A stretch of DNA of 64,000 nt, from contig JAHWGK010000007.1 of the NCBI GenBank assembly GCA_020054495.1, positions 1 to 64,000 on the forward strand. Reading direction: 5' to 3'. The notes under the pieces were generated by a model. It was not told where the DNA came from and ran no database searches. It was given only the letters and a program-made list of their open reading frames with translations. Position 1 is the stretch's first letter; every line of letters starts with the position of its first letter. Made by a program: the position numbers and the translations under genes. This document shows, in pieces, positions 4,938 to 64,000 of the stretch. The stretch comes from Thermoplasmata archaeon. GTDB taxonomy: Archaea; Thermoplasmatota; E2; DHVEG-1.

Positions 4938-6383
4938 CTAATCATCAAGGGGAGGGTACCCACCAATTTTCAAGCTAGGATCACCAAAAAGAACCCATGA
5001 CTGAGGGACTTGTACATCAATCCATGAGTCATTAGTCAGTTGAGCATCCCAATCCACGGCATATGTATCTACATATCTACTTAAGGCAGCCGCCCAGATA
5101 TCACCAATAATATCTAAATTGTTTTGACCATATTGCTTAAAGAACTCCACCTCTAGTTCACAAACCCCTCCTTCAAATGAAATCTTATCTTCTTTAGTAA
5201 ATCCAAGTGCAGTACAACCAATAGTAGCAATAGATCCTCCTCCTATTTTTCTCGTCATCATCCAGCTCCAGCATTCACGGGCGTATTCTCCATGTTTCTT
5301 AGCAGTCTCATTAAATATTTTGAAAATTGATACATCAAACTGACTGTTATGACATCCACCAACTACGCATACCGGGAGCCTATCCTTATTACGAAGTAGA
5401 GGTATCTGATATATACTAAATCCCTTAGTTCGGTTCTTATCATTTGGAAAATGATTTGTCCAAGTCATCGCAGACCCATGACCTGCAAAATAAACAAATC
5501 CACATCCTTTGTTCAGAGCTTTTGTTATATCGCGCCAGTGTGTTAATGTTCCATCCGATGTATAATGTTTTATTGGGTTAAAGCCAGTCATATTTTCAAA
5601 AATCATATCCGCATAATATTCGCCCTCGTATCCTACCCATTTGGGATTTTTATATTCAGGATATGTATCGCCTGCGAATGCTACCATGTCTTTAAACCAT
5701 GACTTATTGTACGCTGTTTTTTCATAATGTATTATTCTACTAACCGTAATTTTTACTTCAAGTCTATTTCTACAAGGTAATCTTCCAACAGCAATATCTG
5801 GATGGAGATCAATATATCTGTCTTCTGGCTGATCTCCATAAAGCCATTCGCCATAAACACCGTCTCCATCAGAATCCCAGCTTGAGAAATTACCTTCAGA
5901 ATCGTAGATATCAGCATAGTACATATCACTAATATAATGTGGCTCAAAGTGGTTACCCATTTGGACATATCTCACTGGAAGATGCCAATGGTTAAATTGC
6001 CGAATTTTACCACCAACTAAAAGGACATATTGAATACCACTATCTTCAATTGCATCTTTGATGAAATATTTGATTTTTTCAGCTTTGTCGCGCCCATACC
6101 AAATATCATCATAAACATAATCTAATGTAACAAGCTTTGTTCTAACACCAAATTTGTTCTTGTGACAAACAAGTGGTTGAAGAGATCTCTTAAACTTTGA
6201 AGGAGCTAATATCAAGAGATCACAGATACTATTATCATTATTACTCTTAGCCTTTGACATAAAATAATTCACACTTTGAGAATTAATCACTGGAAAAATA
6301 GTTAAAGTTAGAAATAAAATGACTATAATAAAAACAAAAATTTTTTTATATATCTCATTTCCCATAATGATAATTATATTCAT
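4938..6383 (-). CDS. peptidase C25 (gingipain-like) secreted protease
   Basis: Signal peptide-like N-term; LLILAPSKF...YVLLVGG...DPDIAVGRLPCR...VYFAGHGSAMTW...VVGGCHNSQFD (His/Cys catalytic motifs). Confidence 0.85.
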   Translation of the reverse strand: MNIIIIMGNEIYKKIFVFIIVILFLTLTIFPVINSQSVNYFMSKAKSNNDNSICDLLILAPSKFKRSLQPLVCHKNKFGVRTKLVTLDYVYDDIWYGRDKAEKIKYFIKDAIEDSGIQYVLLVGGKIRQFNHWHLPVRYVQMGNHFEPHYISDMYYADIYDSEGNFSSWDSDGDGVYGEWLYGDQPEDRYIDLHPDIAVGRLPCRNRLEVKITVSRIIHYEKTAYNKSWFKDMVAFAGDTYPEYKNPKWVGYEGEYYADMIFENMTGFNPIKHYTSDGTLTHWRDITKALNKGCGFVYFAGHGSAMTWTNHFPNDKNRTKGFSIYQIPLLRNKDRLPVCVVGGCHNSQFDVSIFKIFNETAKKHGEYARECWSWMMTRKIGGGSIATIGCTALGFTKEDKISFEGGVCELEVEFFKQYGQNNLDIIGDIWAAALSRYVDTYAVDWDAQLTNDSWIDVQVPQSWVLFGDPSLKIGGYPPLDD

Positions 6384-6450
6384 CGTTGTTTATAAATTTT
6401 TCCAAAAATAGTTAAAATTATTATACCAAAACCTCTATGACATCCATCCA

Positions 6451-14200: not shown

Positions 14201-14923
14201 CTATTTTATAAGATATAAAAATACTTTTTGAAGTAAAGGGAATTGTTCTAATAACTGAAGGATAAATGGATTTGATATTTCTTTGATTCTTGGTGCTTCA
14301 TAATATGTTATAAAACAAAAATCAATGTAACTCTCGTTATCATACCAAATCAATTTATACCAATTGCTACCTGAGGATCTCCATGCATCTCCTCTGTCGT
14401 AAAAATCTTTCCAACTAGTTCTCCAAGCATATTTGTCGAAACTAGTAATTTGATCAGAGCTGCATACAATGTAATATGTATTATCAGGTATAACAGTAAT
14501 ATCATTTAAATTAAAAACTATCCAACCCCCACAACGCCAAAAAATTTGATCTGTTCTAATTGACCTAGCAGCCAAATCCTTACCATTCAAGTCATCTCTA
14601 ATTGAAACAGTGATTTTTTGGTCATCTGGAGGAGAACCTATTTTGTAAATCCATAATGCAACAGCATCAATTTTATCTTTAGATGGTTTAAATGATTGAG
14701 CACGAAAGGTCTGCGGAATTAGATTATATCCACCATTAAAACGTCCAATGAGTTGTTTTTGGTCTGCCCCTTTCAATAATCCAAAAAATGGAGTTGGAAA
14801 TTTCTCATCATTTCTATCATCACCAACTAGTATCAAATCTTGGCTATCTATTTTTATACCAACAACAGGAATTGCAGTAGCAATCAACAGCAAACAAACA
14901 AAAATTCCAATTATTTTTTTCAT
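14201..14923 (-). CDS. secreted protein with novel C-terminal tail (PRIKEISNPFILQLLEQFPLLQKVFLYLIK)
   Basis: Signal peptide MKKIIGIFVCLLLIATAIPVVGI; tail similar to 60039-60137 and 63203-63295. Confidence 0.7.
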   Translation of the reverse strand: MKKIIGIFVCLLLIATAIPVVGIKIDSQDLILVGDDRNDEKFPTPFFGLLKGADQKQLIGRFNGGYNLIPQTFRAQSFKPSKDKIDAVALWIYKIGSPPDDQKITVSIRDDLNGKDLAARSIRTDQIFWRCGGWIVFNLNDITVIPDNTYYIVCSSDQITSFDKYAWRTSWKDFYDRGDAWRSSGSNWYKLIWYDNESYIDFCFITYYEAPRIKEISNPFILQLLEQFPLLQKVFLYLIK

Positions 14924-55115: not shown

Positions 55116-55763
55116 TTATTTTTTAAAATCTTCAGGTCTAAATCCCTGACTGTTTTCTTTATAAAGTTCAATAGCAGTAAATATAATGTTTGTCAATTCT
55201 TCGATCCTTTGCTCATCAGTATAATCAGGATTTAATATTCCATATACAGTAAGATAATAAGGTGTAACAATTCCCCGATGATATTCAAGACTCATCATAG
55301 TAAACATTGGTACTGCGTTATCACCGTCAATATCATAAAATGGTTGTAAAGTTTTTAGTTCACCTGTCGCATGATCGTTATTTATATGATAAAAAATGAC
55401 ACCAGTTCCATTAAAATCAACTGTTTTTGAAAACACATCTTCTTTTTCAAATGTTACATTAAATATTTGCATAACTAAAGGTTCCATGTCATCACAATAA
55501 GCACAAACATCTGTTCTAAATGCAAGAAATATTGGACCTTTTGTTAGCTCATCAATAATGAAATTTGGATGAGGTTTTCCATTTGCTGTCTCAATCTTGT
55601 AATCTTGGGAATACACTCGATTTAGCTTAATACAGCTAAGACAAATTATTGATACTATTCTTGAGTATACTTCATCATAAACATCAGTAAAAGCATACAT
55701 TCCTCCTAAAGACCCAGAAATAAGAATTAAAGCTGTTATTTGTAATACTAGTATTTTTTTCAT
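55116..55763 (-). CDS. secreted thioredoxin-fold protein
   Basis: Signal peptide; PIFLAFRTDVCAYCDDMEPLVMQIF. Confidence 0.7.
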   Translation of the reverse strand: MKKILVLQITALILISGSLGGMYAFTDVYDEVYSRIVSIICLSCIKLNRVYSQDYKIETANGKPHPNFIIDELTKGPIFLAFRTDVCAYCDDMEPLVMQIFNVTFEKEDVFSKTVDFNGTGVIFYHINNDHATGELKTLQPFYDIDGDNAVPMFTMMSLEYHRGIVTPYYLTVYGILNPDYTDEQRIEELTNIIFTAIELYKENSQGFRPEDFKK

Positions 55764-55764
55764 T

Positions 55765-56613
55765 TTAGACCCTCTCAAAAGATATCAATCCTAATGGACA
55801 GGCTTCTATACATTTTCCGCAGAGAATACATTCGGGATCTCTTTTCATATTGGGAACATCAATTCCCATAGGACAACTATTTATACATGCATTACAGTGA
55901 ATGCATTTTTCTTCAGTAGAAGGATGCTCGATCATTAAATGTGTAGAAACATGGAGGTAACTAATTTTATTGAATGGTGCAAGAATCGCACCAACAGGAC
56001 AAAAGTAACGACACCATCCACGCTCAATTATAAAGATTAAAATAAAAAACAGGATAAAAATGACAAGTGCCATATAGAAAAATGCATTTGCTAAATATGT
56101 TCCAGGGTTTAATATCATTACAGGTATTGTACCAACAAGAACTCCAACTGGGCATATATCTGTAAACATGAATCCAATAAATATTGGAGTTATTACGACT
56201 AAGCCAATAAGAACAAAATATTTTGTATATCTTAAATAATGCTCAACTTTATGTTGACCAATTTTTGCAAATATTGGGAATCTTTTTTTAAGTTTCTTTG
56301 GTACTACACCAGTTGTTCTCTGCAGTAAACCAATAGGACATGCCCATCCACAAACAGCTCTTCCGGTTAAAACACCAACAGTACCAAGTATTAGAAGAGG
56401 ATACGTTATCAGTTTCCACTTGAATTCACCATTAAACACACCAACCTCTATTGCACGCAAAGGACAAGCTGAAGTCGCGGCAGGACATGCATGACAATAA
56501 AAAAAAGGATAACAAAAACCTGTCTTTAACCCAAGAGCACCAAGATTAGCTGAAATAAGAAAAATAATTTGAGCTATATACCGTTTAAGCTTCAATAACA
56601 CTTGGAACTTCAT
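55765..56613 (-). CDS. NapH/NosR-like membrane polyferredoxin
   Basis: CGWACPIGLLQR, CRYFCPVGAILAPFNK, CIHCNACINSCPMGID, CILCGKCIEACPLG plus TMs. Confidence 0.88.
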   Translation of the reverse strand: MKFQVLLKLKRYIAQIIFLISANLGALGLKTGFCYPFFYCHACPAATSACPLRAIEVGVFNGEFKWKLITYPLLILGTVGVLTGRAVCGWACPIGLLQRTTGVVPKKLKKRFPIFAKIGQHKVEHYLRYTKYFVLIGLVVITPIFIGFMFTDICPVGVLVGTIPVMILNPGTYLANAFFYMALVIFILFFILIFIIERGWCRYFCPVGAILAPFNKISYLHVSTHLMIEHPSTEEKCIHCNACINSCPMGIDVPNMKRDPECILCGKCIEACPLGLISFERV

Positions 56614-57134
56614 CTAGATCTCTTTCTTTTATATAACGACACTCCAACTAATACTGCAAATAATAATGTAATGATTTCAAAACCTGGTGTACCGTTATCA
56701 TCACCTCCACCATTTGTAGTGCCATTGCCATTTGGTTTTTCAGAAAGATTTATTTTGGTATCCTTAAGATACTCTATCCATCCGGTACTTGTTTCAACGT
56801 TTATAGTATATTGAATGTATGTTGCATCGTCATGACCGAGTGTAGCTGAAACTATATATTTTCCATCCTGCTCAGACATTGAAATATTCTGTAAAGAATC
56901 AGGAAAACAAATTCCGGTATTAGCATTACATTCCTGAACCTTCAGCCATACATCTATTATTCCTTCGTCATCTAATTCTGCAGTAAAAGTAACTGTAGAT
57001 TCTGCAACAGGAGGGTCTGGATCAACAGTTATTGTAGGGTCTGCTGCATTTACTGAGTTTGCTACAAAAAGACTTGTTACTAGCATCATAAAAAATATGA
57101 TTTTTATGGTTCTCCTCATTTTATATTCCTCCAC
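56610..57134 (-). CDS. secreted protein with PGF-CTERM-like sorting signal
   Basis: Signal peptide; C-term TPGFEIITLLFAVLVGVSLYKRKRSR. Confidence 0.7.
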   Translation of the reverse strand: MEEYKMRRTIKIIFFMMLVTSLFVANSVNAADPTITVDPDPPVAESTVTFTAELDDEGIIDVWLKVQECNANTGICFPDSLQNISMSEQDGKYIVSATLGHDDATYIQYTINVETSTGWIEYLKDTKINLSEKPNGNGTTNGGGDDNGTPGFEIITLLFAVLVGVSLYKRKRSR

Positions 57135-57136
57135 CT

Positions 57137-57760
57137 TTACCTGATTAATTCATTCAATATTGGGGCAAGCAGTGGTGTATCTTGTGAATATCCATATGGG
57201 ATTTCAGTAAAACCATGAATCCCTGCTTCTCTATAGTGGCGCTGCCCATTTTCATTAAATATCACTAGTGTGGGAATAGCGCCCTCCTTCAAATAATTTT
57301 CTGAAATACTACCATCAATATCATTCCCAAAAATCCAATCCAGTTCAATACCAAGTTGCGAAACAAATAAACCTCTATATTCCTGTATCTGCTGAATACC
57401 TTCCCTTGATTCAATATTGATAGAAAGTATCTCTAAATCAGCTCTACTATAATTTTCATATATCTTTTTTAATTCAATCATTACAACTACACAAGGTCCA
57501 CACCATGTTGCCCACGTATCAAGGATAACAACTTTTCCTCTATAATCACTTAAATGTTTCTCACTTCCATCAGTTGCTGTAAAAACAAAATCTTCTCCTC
57601 CGTTATCAGTTGTTCCATTGTCATTTTCAGAAGTATTAATACAACCCGAAAAAAAAGACGTTGATATAATTATAATAAATACCGCAATAATCACTTTTTT
57701 CATATCTGAATCTCCACATAGAGATGCATAGTGATAAAGATATCTAGTTGTAAGTTTCAA
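57137..57760 (-). CDS. TlpA/ResA-like thiol-disulfide lipoprotein
   Basis: Lipobox FFSGCINTS; GKVVILDTWATWCGPCVVVMIELKKIYENY. Confidence 0.9.
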   Translation of the reverse strand: MKLTTRYLYHYASLCGDSDMKKVIIAVFIIIISTSFFSGCINTSENDNGTTDNGGEDFVFTATDGSEKHLSDYRGKVVILDTWATWCGPCVVVMIELKKIYENYSRADLEILSINIESREGIQQIQEYRGLFVSQLGIELDWIFGNDIDGSISENYLKEGAIPTLVIFNENGQRHYREAGIHGFTEIPYGYSQDTPLLAPILNELIR

Positions 57761-58157
57761 GCTTCTTTTTTAATTCTTCTTTTGGATAGGCTCCAACAAG
57801 TCGATCGACTAAATTACCATTTTTAAACACAAGTAATGTAGGTATGCTCATAATATGATGTTTAGCTGATGCCAGTGGATTTTCATCAACATTTAGTTTA
57901 CCAAAAACAATTTTACCATGCATCTCTTTTGCTAATTCTTCAATGACAGGTGTAACCATTCTACATGGACCACACCATGGCGCCCAACAATCAACGACAA
58001 TAATTCCATATTTTTTTACCGCTTTATCAATATCTGTATCAGTAATTGTAAGTGGTGTATCTGGTAAATTTTCTCCCATATTTTTTCCTCCATTCAAATA
58101 CTGCTTTTTTAATTCTTCCAATTTTCTCTTTTTAATTTCTTCAAGCTCATCATTCAT
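57744..58157 (-). CDS. thioredoxin
   Basis: IIVVDCWAPWCGPCRMVTPVIEELAKEMHGKIVFGKLNVDENPLASAKHHIMSIPTLLVFKNG. Confidence 0.95.
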   Translation of the reverse strand: MNDELEEIKKRKLEELKKQYLNGGKNMGENLPDTPLTITDTDIDKAVKKYGIIVVDCWAPWCGPCRMVTPVIEELAKEMHGKIVFGKLNVDENPLASAKHHIMSIPTLLVFKNGNLVDRLVGAYPKEELKKKLETYN

Positions 58158-58186
58158 TTTTACGCATAATAGTAATTCTAATATTA

Positions 58187-58441
58187 TTAATTATCCTGAA
58201 GCCATTTTCTTATTCGTAGGTAGCCAATTTTTTTTTCTCCATCCACCCAAAGAATAGGAGCAGTTTTCTGTAACTCTTCAAAAACATCATGAGATTTTGC
58301 CTCATCTAATTGTTCTTCACTCCAATCAGTTATTTCATGTGGATATGTAACTATTTTTACATCATCTCTATTAAGCAATAATTCTTTTGTCTGTGTACAT
58401 TTTGTACAATTTTCTAAAGAAAACAATATTTTTTCAACCAT
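58187..58441 (-). CDS. glutaredoxin/thioredoxin-like small protein
   Basis: KILFSLENCTKCTQTKELLLNRDDVKIVTYP. Confidence 0.75.
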   Translation of the reverse strand: MVEKILFSLENCTKCTQTKELLLNRDDVKIVTYPHEITDWSEEQLDEAKSHDVFEELQKTAPILWVDGEKKIGYLRIRKWLQDN

Positions 58442-58739: not shown

Positions 58740-60137
58740 ATGGAAAAGAAATTTTTTGGAAAAACTTTGATAGTAGGATTAATAATTCTATTCGTTGGAG
58801 CAAGTGTGATACCAAGTGTAAACGGCACAAATATTAGATCAATCGAAGATAATGAAAGAGTTTATGCCTTAGAAGATATGAATTATGTCAAAAATCCATT
58901 GGCTAAGGGAGTTGTATTTGAAGATGATTTTGATACAGGAAATACCCCAGGTCAAGACCCAGTTGGATGGGGTGTTTCAGAATTTATAAACTCTGAGGTA
59001 GCGATAACAGGTGCGACCTATGTAAGCAGCCCATATTCTGTTGAGCTTTATAATCCTGCAGATAGTGGAATCAACATCTGGCATGGTTTTACTTCACTGT
59101 CAGAGGGCGCAGTAGAGTGCCACGTAAAATCAAGTGATGATGGTTGTTTTATCACAACTAGTGAAGAAGAGAACCCAGACCCAGGTGATTGGGGCATACT
59201 AGTAGCTTTCTGGAATGGTAAAATTATGTATCTTGGTTCAAGTGGATGGGAAGATTTGGATCCACCGTTTACGTATACTCCAAACACATGGTATCATTTT
59301 AGATTTGAGTTTGATTGTGGCACTGATACCTATGATATATACATTGATGATGATCTCAAAAAACAGGATGCATCCATGAAAACTCCATTAACATACTTTG
59401 GCTATATATGGATATCATGCGAGTATACCTATGCATGCACTGCATATCTAGACAATGTAAAAATCTCTGAAGCCAATGATCCACCAAACACTCCAGGTAC
59501 TCCTTTAGGGCCTACAACATTGGGAGTAGGAGAGTCTGGTACATACAGTACAAGTGCTACAGATCCAGAAGGAGACCAAGTGCAGTATCGGTTTGATTGG
59601 GATGACGGAACAATTAGTGATTGGACGGATCTTGTAAACTCTGGGGCAACTGCAAGCCAGGATTACTCTTGGGATACGGTTGGGGCGTATGTGGTGAAGG
59701 CTCAAGCCCGTGATGAACAAGGTGGTACAAGTGATTGGTCTAGTGGTTTAGCCGTGGTTGTGAATGATCCTCCTGCAACACCAGATATTGATGGAGAAAC
59801 CAATGGCAAAGTAGGGACAGAACATGAATACACATTTGTTTCAACTGACCCTAATGGAGATATGATCAAGTACATTATCGACTGGGGTGACAACACCACA
59901 GATACTACAGAACTCTATGATTCGGGAGTGACGGCAACGATATCACATACTTGGAATACAAAGGGAACCTACATAATTAAAGCGAAAGCAGCGGATGAAC
60001 ATGATGCTGAAAGTGATTGGGGAACTCTAGAAGTGGCAATGCCAAGAGACAAAATAACAATCAACTCATTGTTATCGCGTCTGCTTGAACGATTTCCAAA
60101 TGCATTCCCTCTGCTAAGACATCTGCTTGGACTGTAA
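58740..60137 (+). CDS. secreted LamG-like/PKD protein with novel C-terminal tail
   Basis: Signal peptide; two PKD repeats; ends MPRDKITINSLLSRLLERFPNAFPLLRHLLGL. Confidence 0.8.
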   Translation: MEKKFFGKTLIVGLIILFVGASVIPSVNGTNIRSIEDNERVYALEDMNYVKNPLAKGVVFEDDFDTGNTPGQDPVGWGVSEFINSEVAITGATYVSSPYSVELYNPADSGINIWHGFTSLSEGAVECHVKSSDDGCFITTSEEENPDPGDWGILVAFWNGKIMYLGSSGWEDLDPPFTYTPNTWYHFRFEFDCGTDTYDIYIDDDLKKQDASMKTPLTYFGYIWISCEYTYACTAYLDNVKISEANDPPNTPGTPLGPTTLGVGESGTYSTSATDPEGDQVQYRFDWDDGTISDWTDLVNSGATASQDYSWDTVGAYVVKAQARDEQGGTSDWSSGLAVVVNDPPATPDIDGETNGKVGTEHEYTFVSTDPNGDMIKYIIDWGDNTTDTTELYDSGVTATISHTWNTKGTYIIKAKAADEHDAESDWGTLEVAMPRDKITINSLLSRLLERFPNAFPLLRHLLGL

Positions 60138-63202: not shown

Positions 63203-64000
63203 TTATTTTAAAAAGAGTAAAAGTTTTTGTAACATTGGGAATTGTTCAAGAACCTGATACAACAATCCTATACTTGTTTCTTTATTTCTAGGCATTGATA
63301 CCGTTAGTTCACCCCAAGGACCTTCATCATCATATATATCCTTTGCTTTACATTTGATTGTATAATTACCTTGATTTGACCATGTGTGTGATTTAGTAAT
63401 TATTATACCAGAATTATAGGGTCCAATCCATCCAGTGTTAGTATTATCATCCCAATCTATGTAATACCAAATATGTAATCCTTCTGGATCATTTGAAGTA
63501 AATGTATAAGGATAAGATGTTCCAGCATTCCCATTAATAGGTCCATTAATATCAGGTTGAGATGGGGGTGAGTTACCATCTTGTATCCAAGCCCAAGTAG
63601 TATCATCAGTTGAGTTTCCACTATCATCTATAACTGTTAAGGTAACTGTATAATTCCCAGGCGCTGTATAAGTATGTTGTGGGTTTTGTTCATCTGAATT
63701 AAAAGTATCTCCAAAATCCCAATGAAAAGTATAAGGAGAGTTCCCACCCTCTGCATGCCCCTCAAATTGAACAGGTTCATTTATTAATCCATAGTATGGT
63801 CCGTTTGCATCAGCTTCAAGTTCCCCTACACTAAATGCATATAAATAATGGCCTCTAGAACCTATATAAACTGTTCCATCTTCACCAATTGCAGGAGCAG
63901 ATTCACAATCACCGATAGATTTTCTCCATTTTTCATTTCCATTAGAATTAAAAGCAATTATTTCTTCGCCTTCACTTATCCCAACATAAATAGTTCCGTC
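63203..64000 (-). CDS. secreted PQQ-repeat/PKD protein (5' end beyond window) with novel C-terminal tail
   Basis: Minus frame: DGTIYVGISEGEEIIAFNSNGNEKWRKSIGD..., PKD repeats, ends MPRNKETSIGLLYQVLEQFPMLQKLLLFLK; not in ORF track. Confidence 0.8.
   Translation of the reverse strand, partial: DGTIYVGISEGEEIIAFNSNGNEKWRKSIGDCESAPAIGEDGTVYIGSRGHYLYAFSVGELEADANGPYYGLINEPVQFEGHAEGGNSPYTFHWDFGDTFNSDEQNPQHTYTAPGNYTVTLTVIDDSGNSTDDTTWAWIQDGNSPPSQPDINGPINGNAGTSYPYTFTSNDPEGLHIWYYIDWDDNTNTGWIGPYNSGIIITKSHTWSNQGNYTIKCKAKDIYDDEGPWGELTVSMPRNKETSIGLLYQVLEQFPMLQKLLLFLK

Follow-up and report, generated by a model that had tools for sequence, protein, structure and literature searches.

The DNA analysed here (the window) comprises positions 1-64000 of a contig in a 2.72-Mb metagenome-assembled genome (MAG) of 248 contigs from the Thermoplasmata. 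A preliminary description had reported three proteins in it that end in similar C-terminal tails. All three tails were recovered at the claimed sites, each ending at its stop codon. A signal peptide is present in all three carriers, that of carrier protein 2 (MKTTIIVGIIALFVVSSLAPLSFG) lying just past the window end. These and the other features referred to below are as follows.

58740-60137, plus strand: carrier protein 1, 465 aa, with a signal peptide, a LamG-like region, two PKD domains and the C-terminal tail
about 58740-58826, plus strand: signal peptide of carrier protein 1
60039-60134, plus strand: tail 1, MPRDKITINSLLSRLLERFPNAFPLLRHLLGL, the final residues preceding the stop codon
63203-64000, minus strand: carrier protein 2, its ORF cut by the window end; at full length a signal peptide, a PQQ/BamB-type beta-propeller, two PKD domains and the tail
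63206-63295, minus strand: tail 2, MPRNKETSIGLLYQVLEQFPMLQKLLLFLK, with the stop codon directly after
14201-14923, minus strand: carrier protein 3, 240 aa, with a signal peptide, a beta-rich unannotated domain and the tail
14204-14296, minus strand: tail 3, APRIKEISNPFILQLLEQFPLLQKVFLYLIK, on a non-PKD domain, with the stop codon directly after
56619-56693, minus strand: Heimdall/PGF-type CTERM of the 56610-57134 protein, with a PGF motif, a transmembrane (TM) span and KRKRSR
4941-6389, minus strand: exported protein without the tail, C-terminal '...LFGDPSLKIGGY', a typical C25 peptidase ending

The body of carrier protein 3 gave no Pfam match and is not PKD. An AlphaFold model of 14201-14923 from the single sequence had a pLDDT of 41 and was uninformative apart from two helices in the tail.

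The tail is 33-40 residues long, with the consensus [VI]-[TS]-M-P-[RK]-N-[KR]-A-x(2-3)-[TP]-[PL]-F-L-x-F-L-[EQ]-x-[HF]-P-N-L-F-P-I-L-[RQ]-x-L-L-x-(R)-L-G-L-(Q). A basic patch (e.g. PRNK) is followed by two short, predicted amphipathic helices around a conserved Pro, and the L-rich end finishes in GL, GLQ or LIK. The patch lies N-terminal to the helices on non-PKD bodies too. Conservation spans the entire tail and is not centred on a short cleavage motif. The maximum hydrophobic moment of the tails was 0.47, compared to 0.29 elsewhere in the same proteins (p = 3e-26) and 0.32 in shuffled tails. The lipid-binding threshold of D > 0.68, a rule of thumb from other systems that here counts the charge of the PRNK patch, was passed by 99% of tails and by 14% of other stretches. 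The amphipathic helix first proposed for the tail is borne out at the level of prediction, in the form of two helices around the Pro. Neither a TM-length span (81 tails; maximum KD19 0.78 on average and 1.37 at the highest, against 1.90 in the Heimdall/PGF-type neighbour) nor a very C-terminal basic cluster was found in the tails, which agrees with the preliminary description.

As a held-out test, an HMM built from the three window tails alone was searched against their own genome. It found 82 places at E <= 10. Of these, 44 had E < 0.01, and the best new matches outside the training set reached 3e-12. The best 30 matches were all C-terminal, 0-13 residues ahead of the stop. In a survey of the phylum, matches at E <= 0.001 were obtained in 40 of 390 genomes. 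The same GTDB family accounts for 38, and the two genomes outside it (both in f4) had single weak matches. The tails are rich in Leu and Phe, and a chance or compositional likeness among Leu-rich C-termini could be suspected on that ground. A model of three tails would not then recover dozens of others, all C-terminal, while some 350 genomes of the phylum yield just two weak matches. The held-out search refutes chance likeness, and we regard its probability as negligible.

With an HMM of 28 tails, 105 places were found in the genome. Counted by ORF (E < 0.1, after retrieval of 40 genome stretches), there were 86 matches, including a duplicate of window tail 1 and a second weak match in one ORF, for a total of about 85 proteins or fragments. 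The search of the whole genome thus placed the same tail on many more exported proteins. The main ORF matches lay within 26 residues of the stop in all cases except one, so that the restriction to extreme C-termini holds with a single divergent exception. In that ORF (L160:929-3328), the tail-like segment is internal and a HExxH metallopeptidase-like domain comes after it, perhaps as the result of a gene fusion. Six body-less ORFs of 44-114 aa (L127, L131, L142, L148, L150 and L159) consist of PKD plus tail or of the tail only; they resemble leftovers of genes or pieces truncated at contig edges, and such orphans suggest that tail genes often turn over or decay. Codons at identical tail residues differed in 48% of comparisons, where 60% would be expected under free choice. 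Most copies are therefore old and maintained at the protein level, and recent copying of tail DNA is rejected as the sole cause.

A 55-tail model detected the tail in 40 of the 45 family genomes, with 0-113 copies per genome and 958 matches overall; the tail-less genomes are G014 (97% complete), G094, G111, G138 and G243. At class level, one f10 genome (G228) adds two matches (best 3e-10), and a C-terminal tail with a signal peptide (locus L267) was assigned to it by elimination. When 84,980 named genomes were searched with a strict DNA pattern, three contigs matched, all from Thermoplasmat(ot)a MAGs. A viral origin was discarded as the same strict pattern, a weak test, was not found in IMG/VR contigs. 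From the names of the matched genomes and the many C25 peptidases, we infer that the lineage is MBG-D/Thermoprofundales (GTDB DHVEG-1).

All complete carriers of at least 200 aa have a signal peptide. A strict rule called a signal peptide in 66 of the tail matches, and the matches outside this rule are fragments, run off the end of a contig or stretch, or have a hydrophobic segment without a rule-called start. Applied to the other genes of the window, the rule passed 14 of 53, several being multi-span membrane proteins. No complete protein lacking a signal peptide was found to carry the tail, which agrees with the tail's original description as a feature of secreted proteins. Lipoprotein anchoring was rejected as the means of attachment, since a lipobox-like motif occurred in just 3 of the 66 signal-peptide carriers.

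The bodies of the 71 carriers of at least 200 aa were classified by domain-family matches. PKD was found in 30, Peptidase_C25 in 11, beta-propeller/PQQ in 9, FG-GAP in 4, papain C1 and M28 in 3 each and S8 in 2, with M14, S15, LamG, NosD and others represented once each. Judging by these domains, the carriers act outside the cell as enzymes, many of them peptidases, or resemble adhesins. The T9SS PorU sortase model was matched by 10 of the 71, through their C25 bodies. A home-made PKD profile detected a PKD-like domain immediately ahead of the tail in 63 carriers; the other eight bear the tail on other domains, including the undescribed domain of 14201-14923. In one protein (L124_12), the tail directly follows the end of the C25 catalytic domain, and tail-less C25 proteins end ('...GDPSLKIGGY') where this tail begins. 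Because the tail follows non-PKD bodies of several kinds, including a C25 end at which tail-less C25 proteins stop, we agree with the preliminary description that it is a module. Taken with its copy number and range, the sequence evidence indicates that the tail is genuine: a C-terminal module that marks exported proteins, occurs in high copy number and is restricted to this lineage.

The PKD-like domain that so often precedes the tail would also be expected of a folding or oligomerisation element, which would cap the last PKD domain or self-associate and have no role in localisation. AlphaFold2 models of PKD plus tail (six sequences) had a PKD sandwich with a pLDDT of about 97 to residue 90. 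After residue 93, the tail was predicted as two separate helices (98-110 and 114-121) with a pLDDT of about 59 and no confident packing onto the PKD domain, so that the PKD fold appears complete alone. This, the several different non-PKD bodies of eight carriers, and the many PKD proteins without a tail make a role in folding quite improbable.

The endings of PKD proteins were compared in a small sample of 25 distinct ORFs, those behind the best PKD matches in the genome. Five end in the tail and 11 in a C-terminal TM or CTERM-like span (KD19 above 2); the remainder have neither ending or run off the locus. As none has both, tail and membrane span seem to be interchangeable, with the tail substituting for the span, and the common problem that they solve would be retention. 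Retention would not be universal, because about a third of the sampled proteins carry neither tail nor TM. A second recurrent C-terminal module, beta-rich ('...FGFGKINIKIEVE...SAFALGPFILNIQ'), was observed on long C25 proteins of tail-less or tail-poor relatives (L249, L256, L257 and L264, in G014, G243 and G066) and is possibly an alternative ending to the tail.

Searches of Pfam and NCBIfam gave no meaningful match to the tails, and the best profile match among PDB sequences (cyclin E, E = 1.9) was at chance level. The suggestion that the tail belongs to no named family is upheld by these searches, and a search of the open-access literature returned no description of it. None of the CTERM models in NCBIfam matched any of the 55 tails at E <= 1. 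The neighbouring 56610-57134 protein had been assigned to PGF-CTERM; it does carry an archaeosortase-type tag, but the tag scores as the related Heimdall-CTERM (26.6 bits, cut-off 24). PGF-CTERM with its archaeosortase and Heimdall-CTERM (NF045529) resemble the tail as C-terminal tags of archaeal signal-peptide proteins with many copies per genome. GlyGly-CTERM with rhombosortase and MYXO-CTERM with myxosortase are likewise many-to-one C-terminal tags, theirs for surface sorting. CTERM tags comprise a motif, a TM span and a cytoplasmic basic cluster (PMC11980579), whereas the tail shares with these tripartite systems the signal peptide of its carriers and lacks the TM span, the terminal basic cluster and, among the four enzyme families compared below, a co-occurring cognate enzyme. 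Without a TM span and a basic end, it does not qualify as a signal for sortase, archaeosortase or rhombosortase.

We compared the occurrence of four known families of processing enzymes with that of the tail across the 45 family genomes. Archaeosortase TIGR04178 is encoded in 39, usually in one copy and including four of the five tail-less genomes; it was not found, among others, in G069 (95% complete, 8 tails) and G246 (64% complete, 64 tails). Each of these two genomes has 8 Heimdall-CTERM-like tags despite no detectable archaeosortase, and incompleteness may be the reason, above all in G246. Rhomboid PF01694 is present as a single copy in 39 genomes, including all tail-less ones, Rce1-type PF02517 in 40, at roughly one copy each and with tail-less genomes among them, and sortase PF04203 in none. 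Heimdall/PGF-type CTERM occurs in 45 of 45 genomes, with or without the tail; Heimdall-CTERM-like tags number 2-16 per genome and show no relation to the number of tails after correction for genome size. C25 (gingipain/PorU-type) peptidases number 4-36 in every genome, tail or none. The dedicated enzyme that a sorting signal led one to expect was thus not found among the four families. Archaeosortase was rejected as a partner, and so were rhomboid, sortase and Rce1-type enzymes, whose presence follows neither the presence nor the number of tails. As far as gene presence shows, the tail would be no substrate of these systems.

A processed sorting signal would be cut at the PRxK patch by a dedicated membrane or surface enzyme and the body joined to a lipid or glycan, in the manner of sortases, archaeosortases or the T9SS PorU, the cutter perhaps being a C25/PorU-like peptidase. 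Such processing would agree with the logic of CTERM systems, which combine a signal peptide, a C-terminal tag and many substrates for one enzyme (PMC11980579), and with the abundance of C25 relatives that match the PorU sortase model. It is opposed by the enzyme distributions above, including tail-bearing genomes without an archaeosortase match and C25 peptidases as abundant where tails are missing, as well as by the absence of a TM span and basic end and by conservation of the whole tail. We consider processing unlikely, and anchoring would explain the observations better than a cleaved sorting signal.

The T9SS CTD (Por secretion tail) is an approximately 80-aa beta-sandwich that serves outer-membrane transit. 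Its carriers, like those of the tail, include C25 gingipain-type peptidases; the tail, by contrast, has 33-40 residues and is predicted to be helical, and the T9SS CTD model was absent among the best 25 of 56 NCBIfam families matching the carriers. A parallel for another reading is the dockerin-cohesin system, in which a modular C-terminal helical ligand is placed on many enzymes. The tail may similarly be the ligand of a dedicated surface receptor (an S-layer or scaffold protein), and docking would then assemble extracellular peptidases into a surface complex. The highly specific conservation, including the Pro and Asn positions, the modular tail on multiple enzymes and a single recognition sequence in up to 113 copies per genome all favour docking. 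The calcium-loop repeats of dockerins are not in the tail, however, and no dockerin was among the Pfam families that the tails matched at E <= 1. Nor does the tail match any solved domain, and a receptor was not found: no recurrent tail partner emerged from the neighbourhoods in 20 regions of low- and medium-copy genomes. We hold docking to be a rather doubtful reading, although a better one than processing.

One non-tail gene set did recur near tail genes in these 20 regions, a thioredoxin redox cluster, and was rejected as a partner since the association looks like chance or synteny of the block. In the window (55116-58441), it encodes a thioredoxin, a TlpA-like lipoprotein, a NapH-like 4Fe-4S protein, a glutaredoxin-like protein and the CTERM protein. 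The cluster is conserved across genera (the window, L274 in G069 and, partly, L269 in G222), with a tail gene nearby in all three.

Our preferred reading, to which we assign a probability of roughly one half on the basis of sequence, structure prediction and analogy, is that the tail serves to retain proteins at the surface, as a modular C-terminal tag that acts as an in-plane amphipathic membrane anchor. A cleavable Sec-type signal peptide would take carriers across the membrane. Once folded on the outside, they would be held against the outer side of the cytoplasmic membrane by their last 33-40 residues. From basic patch through helix 1 and the Pro kink to helix 2, the tail would most likely remain uncleaved and lie flat within the membrane plane, its Lys and Arg residues at the lipid head groups.

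The nearest mechanism is probably the anchor of E. coli PBP5, an exported protein that a C-terminal amphipathic anchor attaches to the external side of the inner membrane, and that is soluble and mislocalised when the anchor is removed (PMC2909392). PBP5 and PBP6 (DacA/DacC) share with the carriers a cleavable signal peptide, and their uncleaved anchor is an amphipathic C-terminal helix that is not TM, as is predicted of the tail. The PBP5 anchor is a single helix found on one enzyme family, whereas the tail has two helices and a Pro kink on dozens of unrelated archaeal proteins; the comparison is one of analogy, and homology is not claimed. Several observations weigh against a membrane anchor. 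Amphipathic helices would suit a protein-binding site equally well, and FPN.FPILR..LLGL shows more conservation than lipid binding by itself would require of a helix, which favours a specific partner. The sampled PKD proteins that have neither tail nor TM, and the divergent segment inside one protein, also count against it. Even so, an in-plane anchor appears more likely than a docking peptide, and surface retention by one or the other is the probable function of the tail.

MBG-D/Thermoprofundales are abundant in sediments and are reported to transcribe extracellular C25 and M09B peptidases (PMC6461988). C25 peptidases account for 11 of the 71 full-length carriers, and the tail would bear on how sediment archaea keep their enzymes from loss to the surroundings. 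With about 85 exported carriers in a single genome, it provides a testable candidate retention signal, and the tail HMM allows exported proteins of these uncultured archaea to be recognised. We tentatively suggest that it may represent an entirely new surface-attachment system, a short, non-TM helical-hairpin tag without a known processing enzyme, either membrane-inserted or receptor-docked. If so, such a system would be at work mainly in one archaeal family, on as many as roughly 100 exported proteins in a single genome; in the docked form, a surface receptor would organise extracellular protein-degrading enzymes. In either form, the tail would be a case for archaeal surface display independent of archaeosortase.
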